From Syntrophothermus sp. DTU052 (GTDB lineage: Bacteria; Bacillota; Syntrophomonadia; Syntrophomonadales; DTU052), in NCBI GenBank assembly GCA_001512495.1, contig LFRU01000075.1:1-34530 (forward strand): DNA of 34,530 bases, written 5' to 3'. The notes below the pieces were generated by a model. The model saw only the letters and a list, made by a program, of their open reading frames with translations. It searched no databases and was not told the origin of the DNA. The first letter of the stretch is position 1, and every line of letters begins with the position of its first letter. Below are positions 16,616 to 19,460 of this stretch, piece by piece. The position numbers and the translations under genes were made by a program.

Positions 16616-17323
16616 CTGGAAACCCTGGGGGAAAAGCTGCGTAAACAACGAATAAGCAAGGGCTTTACACTTGATGATGTTGAAGAGGAAACCAAAATAA
16701 GAAAATTCTATATTGTGGCTTTGGAAGAAGACAACTATCATCTGCTCCCCGCTACGGTATACGCGGCCGGATTCGTGAAACGTTATTCGCGGCTTTTGGG
16801 ATTGGATGAGAATGAGATCGTGGATGAGTTCAAGCGAGCTTCGGGAAGGTATGACACCATGGATGATGAGGAAGCGGGATCAAAACGGGTCCGCGATAAA
16901 ATAAATGTTCCTTTGAAGAACATAATAACGGGACTGATATTCCTGGCCATTGTCGTCTGGATGGGCACCTACCTGGTAGAATACCTGGTACACAGGGAAG
17001 GGGCTCGTAATAATCAAACGCCAACCCCACCGATCACCAGTAATGAGCCCAGCGAAGAACCAAAAGAACCTCCGGTATTTGAAGGGGTTAATCTGCGAAT
17101 AACCGGTGTTGAGTTGTGCTGGATCAGAGCTACTGTTGATGGCGAGTTGATACCCGATACCATGCTGCAGCCCGGTCAGATTAAAGAAATAGAGGCCACA
17201 GAAAGCGTACAGTTGCATCTGGGGAACGCAGGTGGAGTACGCATTGAGTATAATGGAGAGGATATGGGAGTACCCGGTGAACGCGGTAAAACTATCCGGT
17301 TAACGTATCCTCCTCCCGAGTGA
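16616..17323 (+). CDS. rodZ: RodZ-like helix-turn-helix membrane protein
   Basis: Cell-shape factor family (YmfM/RodZ): a cytoplasmic HTH domain, one membrane helix and an external DUF4115-like domain. In this frame the HTH (LGEKLRKQRISKGFTLDDVEE..., residues about 4-70) is intact, the membrane helix is at about 103-123, and the C-terminal beta domain at about 158-235. The frame has no ATG/GTG/TTG until GTG 16715, which would remove half of the HTH and has no ribosome site. GAGGAGGGA (16601-16609) is ideally placed for CTG 16616, used here as the start. Alternatively, ATG 16609 was the start and one extra C in codon 3 shifts the frame: ATG CAG C/CTG GAA. The position before pgsA, cinA and recA matches B. 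subtilis rodZ (ymfM). Confidence 0.85.
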   Translation: METLGEKLRKQRISKGFTLDDVEEETKIRKFYIVALEEDNYHLLPATVYAAGFVKRYSRLLGLDENEIVDEFKRASGRYDTMDDEEAGSKRVRDKINVPLKNIITGLIFLAIVVWMGTYLVEYLVHREGARNNQTPTPPITSNEPSEEPKEPPVFEGVNLRITGVELCWIRATVDGELIPDTMLQPGQIKEIEATESVQLHLGNAGGVRIEYNGEDMGVPGERGKTIRLTYPPPE

Positions 17324-17332
17324 AACGATAAT

Positions 17333-17355
17333 GGTCCCGCAAGGGACCTTTTTTT
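17333..17355 (+). terminator. intrinsic terminator after rodZ; group II intron target
   Basis: A perfect GGTCCC-GCAA-GGGACC hairpin (17333-17348) followed by seven Ts (17349-17355). The group II intron boundary begins at the very next base, which is the insertion preference of bacterial class C introns. Confidence 0.93.
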
Positions 17356-18032
17356 GTGTAGCGTGCCCAGCCAAGCACGCATCATTTCGCCGGTGAAAGT
17401 CCGGTTCGGGTAAACGCCAAGGTGCCCCGTAGCTAGGATACCTGCGTACGGAGAAATCTGTGCGTAGAATTGTCAAAGCTATCATGGCAAGACTGGAACT
17501 GACATTGCACCCGACCAAGACCCGGATAGTAGGTATGTGGACCGGGGAAGAAGGGTTTGACTTTCTGGGGATGCACCACCGGAAAACAAAGGCGGAAACA
17601 TCCAAAGCAAAGTATACTACACCACGCAACAGTGGCTAACCTCAAAGGCAGAACAGCATATACGGGATGTTGTAAAGGAGAGGCTAGCACCGCCTTCGGC
17701 CCGGGTACAGTCGTTGGAATCACATATCGAGTACCTGAATCCGAAAATACGCAGATGGAAAAATTATTATGCCACACCCTACAGTACTCGTAAAATGGCA
17801 AAGCTGGACTGGTATATCATTCAGCGATTTGCCCGCTGGTATGCCAAGAAAACAAAAAGGTGCCGACCATATAGCGGTTGGCGTCAAGTGGTGGAAATGT
17901 TAAACAAGCAGGGACTGCTGAAACTGGCATAATCGAACGCGCATGAATGACGAACATCGGAAAGCCGTATGGAGGAAAACTTCACGTACGGTTTGATGAG
18001 GAGGGGCTGGTATCCCCAGCCCTTCACTCTAC
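17356..18032 (+). mobile_element. degenerate group II intron, probably class C, internally deleted
   Basis: The 5' end GTGTAGCG at 17356 fits the GUGYG-type intron boundary, and the following about 95 bp have the look of domain I (GCCGGTGAAAGTCCGG, CCGTAGCTAGG). A maturase remnant follows (17461-17932). Domain V is recognisable at about 17962-17994: AAGCCGTA pairs with TACGGTTT, with the AGC triad and a capping GAAA-like loop. Domain VI is a GGGCTGG/CCAGCCC hairpin, ending near CTCTAC at 18032. Total length is about 677 bp against roughly 1.8-1.9 kb for intact relatives, so most of domains I-IV and the N-terminal reverse transcriptase are gone. It is inserted directly behind a terminator T tract. 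It cannot move on its own; splicing is doubtful. Boundaries are inferred to within a few bases. Confidence 0.85.
17461..17932 (+). pseudogene. group II intron reverse transcriptase/maturase, C-terminal remnant with frameshift
   Basis: The first segment (17461 to about 17600) encodes the end of the reverse transcriptase domain: LELTLHPTKTRIVG and EGFDFLGMHHR. The frame then shifts near 17595-17612. The second segment, to the stop at 17930-17932, encodes the maturase-specific X domain, with LNPKIRRWKNYY and a basic tail ending LNKQGLLKLA. The catalytic YADD region and everything before it are missing, so no active enzyme can be made. Confidence 0.88.
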
Positions 18033-18131: not shown

Positions 18132-19460
18132 ATGAAAGTGGGTTTCATCAGCCTGGGGTGTTCCAAGAACCTGGTAGACACTGAACATATGATGGGAGCG
18201 CTGAAAGCTGCCGGTCACGAAATCGTCAATGATCCGGAACTGGCTGATGCGGTGGTGGTTAACACCTGCGGATTTATCACCGAGGCAAAACGAGAGGCCA
18301 TTGACGCCATCGTGGAGATGGGTTTGTTGAAGGAACAGGGAAAGTTCCGCATCCTGTTGGCGACCGGCTGCCTTGCCCAGCGGTATCCCGACGAACTGCT
18401 GCAGGAATTGCCGGAATTGGATGCAGTGGTCGGGGTGAAGGACTATCTAAGAATTCCTGCTATCCTCAATGCATGTGAGGCGGGGCAGAGGCCGAAAGCG
18501 GTGAGCGGCTGGCCTGAAAAGTACTCTCTCCAGACGAAGAGATTGGTTTCAACCCCTCCGGGGTGGGCTTACCTGAAAATTGCGGAGGGCTGCAATAATC
18601 GCTGTACCTACTGTGCGATTCCAGGGATCAGGGGGCCTCTTCGATCCCGTCCCAAGGCTGAATTGATAAAAGAGGCCCAAGAACTGGCAGATGCCGGAGT
18701 TCGAGAACTGGTGTTGGTTGCTCAGGACACTACCGCCTACGGGCGCGACTTAGGCCCGGGTGAGTCACTGGCGGATTTGGTAGAAAAACTGGGAGATATC
18801 AACGGGATTGAATGGATTCGGGTGATGTATGCTTACCCCACCGGCAATGTGGGAGAGATACTTTCGGCACTTAAATTGAAAAAGGTGGTTCCCTATCTGG
18901 ATATCCCTCTGCAGCACGGGAGCGATAAGATACTCAAACTCATGGGGCGCAGGTATAACCGTCAGGTTGTTTATAACCTGATTGCAGAACTAAGAGAGGC
19001 GATTCCGGGACTGGCCCTGCGGACCACATTGATGACTGGATTTCCCGGGGAGTCCGCGGATGACCACCGAGAAAACATGGAGTTGTTGGAGCGACTACAA
19101 TTTGACTGGACCGGGGTTTTTGCTTACAGTAAGGAAGATGGAACTGTTGCCGGCCGACTGGTACCGGAGGTCTCTCCGGAGGTTGCTTTAGAACGCCGCC
19201 GTCAGCTGTTGGAGCTTCAGCAGCGTATAACCCAGAGAAAGAACCAACAGCGGGTAGGACAGCAAGCTTCCGTATTGGTAGAGAGCAGGCTATCGCCTGG
19301 TAACTACCGGGGGCGGGCGTGTTTTCAGGCACCGGAGGTTGATGGGACCGTTCTGATTAAAGCCAACCGGGTTTTGGAAACGGGAAATTTTGTTACCATC
19401 AGTTTTTCCAGGGCTTACGGCTATGATTTAATAGGAGAGGAGCAAATTGGGACTACCTAA
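18132..19460 (+). CDS. rimO: ribosomal protein uS12 methylthiotransferase
   Basis: A radical-SAM enzyme that methylthiolates the conserved Asp of ribosomal protein S12. It is 442 residues. The N-terminal MTTase domain holds the auxiliary cluster cysteines Cys10, Cys46 and Cys80; the radical-SAM CxxxCxxC is at Cys154, Cys158 and Cys161 (EGCNNRCTYCAIP); a C-terminal TRAM domain covers about 375-440. The N-terminus KVGFISLGCSKNLVDTE separates RimO from MiaB. The start is ATG 18132, with AAAGGAG 12 bases upstream. The stop lies inside the beginning of pgsA (14-bp overlap). The 99 bp between the intron end and rimO carry no other gene that I can support. Confidence 0.96.
   Translation: MKVGFISLGCSKNLVDTEHMMGALKAAGHEIVNDPELADAVVVNTCGFITEAKREAIDAIVEMGLLKEQGKFRILLATGCLAQRYPDELLQELPELDAVVGVKDYLRIPAILNACEAGQRPKAVSGWPEKYSLQTKRLVSTPPGWAYLKIAEGCNNRCTYCAIPGIRGPLRSRPKAELIKEAQELADAGVRELVLVAQDTTAYGRDLGPGESLADLVEKLGDINGIEWIRVMYAYPTGNVGEILSALKLKKVVPYLDIPLQHGSDKILKLMGRRYNRQVVYNLIAELREAIPGLALRTTLMTGFPGESADDHRENMELLERLQFDWTGVFAYSKEDGTVAGRLVPEVSPEVALERRRQLLELQQRITQRKNQQRVGQQASVLVESRLSPGNYRGRACFQAPEVDGTVLIKANRVLETGNFVTISFSRAYGYDLIGEEQIGTT

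Follow-up and report, generated by a model that had tools for sequence, protein, structure and literature searches.

The 672-nt element at 17361–18032, located between a rodZ-like gene and rimO, is in all likelihood the decayed remnant, no longer mobile, of a class C-type group II intron of the kind that targets terminators; it stands behind the rodZ terminator. The window, meaning the whole stretch of DNA analysed (34,530 nt of contig LFRU01000075.1 from Syntrophothermus sp. DTU052), contains the following features of the element and its surroundings:

17333–17355, plus strand: intrinsic terminator GGTCCC-GCAA-GGGACC followed by T7, the insertion target; it belongs to the upstream rodZ-like gene and is also present in three congeneric genomes that lack the intron.
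17356–17360, plus strand: 5′ flank (exon) GTGTA, outside the intron, between the T tract and the intron; ATGTA at the empty site of the congener G002, and variable in sister copies upstream of GCGTGCCC.
17361–17470, plus strand: intron 5′ end, the first 110 nt of domain I, which breaks off at ...GTGCGTAGAA; 96% identity to the UBA1445 copy over 113 nt.
17470–17471, plus strand: deletion junction; about 1.24 kb is absent relative to the UBA1445 copy (its positions 134 to about 1374).
17472–17600, plus strand: maturase remnant, end of the RT domain, in the first frame; NCBIfam TIGR04416, 7e-9.
17600–17932, plus strand: maturase remnant, domain X, in the second frame after a 1-nt frameshift, with its own TAA at the end; Pfam GIIM, 6.8e-10.
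17960–18032, plus strand: domains V and VI and the intron 3′ end (...CACTCTAC); supported by RF00029 (45 bits), by the fold and by the last 60 nt, which equal those at G020 contig ends.
18033–18044, plus strand: 3′ flank CTGTTTTCCTGG, which matches CTGTTTTAACGG of the G002 empty site.

The upstream gene, the longest listed frame of which ends at 17323, we take to be rodZ-like from its make-up, and the downstream frame (18132–19460) is presumably rimO.

The terminator hairpin is perfect, with a GC-rich stem of 6 bp and seven Ts, as the first-pass annotation had described it. The same terminator is found in all three congeners compared, Syntrophothermus sp. UBA1445 (G001), G002 and G003, and the intron is absent from the site in each of them (3/3). 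In G004, related at the family level, the rimO matches were only distant, at 31–32% identity. The empty site of G002 reads T7-ATGTA-CTGTTTTAACGG and the window reads T7-GTGTA-intron-CTGTTTTCCTGG; judged by this comparison, the insertion at the rodZ terminator is precise.

The 5′ boundary is fixed by 53 close-family sites, the window included. In these, GCGTGCCC occupies positions +1 to +8, no position having more than two exceptions, and the stretch from −14 to −1 is variable and T-rich. Since the GCGTGCCC start is near-invariant while the upstream positions vary, GTGTA is assigned to the flank. The intron begins with GCGTG at 17361 and ends at 18032, and the distance to its start is 12 nt from the end of the terminator GC stem and 5 nt from the T tract. 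The first-pass annotation had placed the 5′ end at GTGTA, on the base right behind the T tract; this candidate was dropped after comparison with the sister sites and the G002 empty site, which put the true start five bases further on. Its 3′ flank, CTGTTTTCCTGG, was correct, and its expectation of an empty site with the T tract joined to CTGTTTTCCTGG held for the joining of the flanks in G002 and failed for the 4–5 bases that lie in between.

A full-length sister of the element is present in the same genus. Syntrophothermus sp. UBA1445 carries, at a different insertion site (contig DCTH01000044.1; L028, 25–1948), a complete copy of 1924 nt with an uninterrupted maturase, which scores 109.3 bits with RF02003 and 53.7 bits with RF00029. 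In addition to the close similarity at the 5′ end, the two copies share 71% identity over the 3′ 567 nt. The alignment of the window copy follows the UBA1445 copy to 17470 (position 133 of the latter) and picks up again at about its position 1375. Compared with this sister, the window copy lacks most of domain I, domains II–III and all of the maturase that precedes the last part of the RT domain; because most of domain I and all of domains II–III are deleted, the window element is a remnant and not a complete intron. The putative EBS1 and EBS3 exon-binding loops presumably belonged to the deleted part of domain I.

The retained parts are still recognizable. The 5′ piece reaches 45.2 bits with RF02003 (group-II-D1D4-4), below the cut-off of 49 and with the second half of the model badly matched, because the rest of the domain I–IV region is deleted. 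The RT-end remnant is 71% identical to residues 265–328 of the UBA1445 maturase and the domain X remnant is 61% identical to its residues 319–434; in the alignment with the UBA1445 copy, the single nucleotide absent from the remnant, which constitutes the frameshift, falls near 17595–17602. At the 3′ end, domain V/VI exceeds the cut-off of its Rfam covariance model (45 bits for RF00029 against 40), has the AGC triad of domain V at 17963–17965 and folds with a z of −6.7. The deleted middle, the frameshifted maturase and the domain V/VI with its AGC triad had all been proposed in the first-pass annotation, and each was recovered here.

Other members of the intron family show varying degrees of integrity. 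An ORF-deleted copy in the genome G095 (C19; L027, 3015–4212) resembles the window copy in having an internal deletion and in sitting behind a terminator; unlike the window copy, it has kept the match to the domain I–IV RNA (RF02003, 96.5 bits) and only its maturase is cut, being reduced to the last part with YADD changed to YADA. This intron is a better candidate than the window copy for service in trans. Two more relics of the same family, seemingly consisting of the 5′ piece only and lying behind a terminator-like hairpin, were seen in G031 (L029, about 2763–2900) and at C6 of G095 (L031, about 2806–2920). In the genome G020, contig ends coincide with ends of introns of the family, three 5′ and three 3′ (L008, L018, L021, L024, L030 and L082), which points to three or more almost identical copies as the probable cause of breaks in the assembly. 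Many Paenibacillus members have CTAG as their last bases, and CTAC closes the copies of Syntrophothermus, G020, G057 and G095. Among plasmids, 27 records gave a match; in three, from Paenibacillus urinalis and with an annotated maturase, it extended over 80% or more of the query, and the remaining plasmid matches listed cover only 8–14% of it; the search of phage sequences gave no match.

Insertion behind a terminator is characteristic of the sister copies as well. A hairpin with a T-rich tail, judged by a purpose-made score with the bar set at 14, precedes the intron in 53 of the 73 distinct 5′ flanks of at least 40 nt (the window, 8 flanks from comparison genomes and 64 from 80 loci, 10 of which had no 5′ end match and were left out of the count), one of the passing flanks, L106, being doubtful with its spacer of 24. 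Shifted controls gave 4, 4, 1, 2 and 1 of 73 for five upstream shifts and 1, 1 and 0 of 69 for three downstream shifts. The 20 flanks below the bar, some of them with a weaker hairpin visible, include all eight Brevibacillus sites. At these sites (Brevibacillus panacihumi, L160–L167), eight related introns follow not a terminator but a common sequence, approximately GGAAAAGGCGGAACACG....AGCGGCCA with minor variations, which is a different target beside that of the terminator-targeting relatives.

With respect to its class, the window element is like class C (IIC) introns such as B.h.I1 and GsI-IIC in its insertion just behind an intrinsic terminator. For the maturase of the UBA1445 sister, RVT_1 and GIIM are the only domains listed and an endonuclease domain is not. 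The best solved relative of this maturase is the GsI-IIC RT (195 bits vs 173 for LtrA). In the excerpted text of PMC4028801, the class C ends are given as 5′ GUNYGCCNRGC and 3′ ..ACYCGAU; the window 5′ end, GCGUGCCCAGC, departs from the former at position 2, and the window 3′ end, ..ACUCUAC, departs from the latter at the G and in its final base, C instead of U, the general group II end being AY. The agreement is close but not exact. The second base is C in 51 of the 53 family sites, where the published class C consensus has U. According to the relevant excerpt of PMC8919778, bacterial-C introns are found immediately after rho-independent terminators, as are nearly half of the g6, U1 and U2 introns identified in that study; that of PMC4424553 gives the same location for IIC introns and describes class C as having no endonuclease domain, and PMC4028801, in the part cited, describes bacterial group II copies as mostly truncated. 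The window element fits this published picture of terminator insertion and truncated copies, and it is best read as class C-type, the alternatives being the neighbouring g6, U1 and U2 types, which also occur at terminators. The full-length sister in the genus, the three empty congeners and the sister copies lying mostly behind terminators uphold the first-pass reading of the element as a decayed intron of class C type inserted at a terminator.

The relations of the element to other genomes differ from those of its neighbour gene. The last 60 nt of the intron are identical to two contig starts of G020 (60/60) and to a third (59/59), and no rimO DNA match was found in G020, which represents another family of the order. 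Identity to UBA1445 is 71% for rimO vs 96% for the first 113 nt of the intron. As far as can be read from these alignments, spread of the intron lineage between the genomes explains the pattern, to which slow ribozyme evolution may contribute. In the distal stem of domain V, the window copy departs from UBA1445 and G095 by changes in both strands which keep the pairs (GGAG/CTTC vs GAGG/CCTC, read off the alignment), and G020 has the visible part of the same variant. Because pairing is kept and the variant is common to G020, these changes would be older than the decay.

One copy of the intron is present in its own genome, the assembly of which comprises 113 contigs and is given as 99.5% complete. 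The full-length copies proposed for a search in the first-pass annotation were not found in this genome, nor was a second copy of any kind, and the maturase search returned only the two pieces of the window remnant and no other relative. A domain V match below the cut-off (30.2 bits) occurs on the minus strand at another place of the same genome (C52; L002, 1501–1572), where by eye it adjoins the apparent end of a glutamine synthetase gene. It resembles a piece of a different intron; a maturase at C52 was found neither by eye in the stretch read nor in the maturase search.

It is very improbable that the remnant has been kept for its use to the neighbours, for example as a second hairpin behind rodZ or as a rimO leader. 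Domain V/VI is indeed a very stable hairpin pair and lies about 100 nt upstream of rimO, but the element is absent from the three congeners, and the parent intron alone explains the sequence, the last 60 nt of which are those of introns elsewhere.

Even smaller is the chance that the element is a short non-autonomous form which a full-length relative, through its maturase, still splices and mobilises in trans; a trans-mobilised short form was the option that the first-pass annotation had offered beside a relic. The two intron ends are retained, domain V/VI looks intact and the genus contains a full-length relative, but domain I is down to 110 nt, domains II–III are absent, the copy is single in a genome in which no intact relative of the maturase was found, and none of the matches listed in 100 other genomes spans the deletion junction. 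Since the window copy has neither the RT active site nor a helper and lacks most of domain I, splicing or movement in trans is unlikely, and we give as little credit to the idea that the two kept ends make up a minimal RNA, a very short non-autonomous intron on which a related maturase still acts. The immobile relic is favoured over these forms because most of domain I, domains II–III and the RT active site are gone and no other relative was found in the genome.

Finally, it is barely credible that the deletion junction is artificial, two pieces of an intron present as a repeat having been fused during assembly: introns of the family do stop at contig ends in the G020 assembly, and a misassembled junction or a missed full-length copy is conceivable because the assembly is in 113 contigs, but no second copy or piece was found in the own genome, hence no visible repeat to mislead the assembler, and the maturase remnant has a separate frameshift.

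We suggest that an intron of the class C kind retrotransposed into the rodZ–rimO intergenic region of a Syntrophothermus-like genome, its source being a lineage of which several copies would also exist elsewhere in the order. An internal deletion of about 1.24 kb, starting within domain I and reaching the end of the RT domain, would have followed, and a 1-nt frameshift would have hit the remaining maturase; we infer this order of events from the retained parts. The remnant would now neither splice nor move and would be inherited passively, presumably as a neutral sequence, with the terminator still standing behind rodZ.

Such a relic is ordinary, remains of this kind being common among bacteria, and its importance may extend little beyond annotation. 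Nevertheless, a single genus here offers the decayed copy, its full-length sister and the empty sites, which makes it a clean case in which the intron boundary is fixed.
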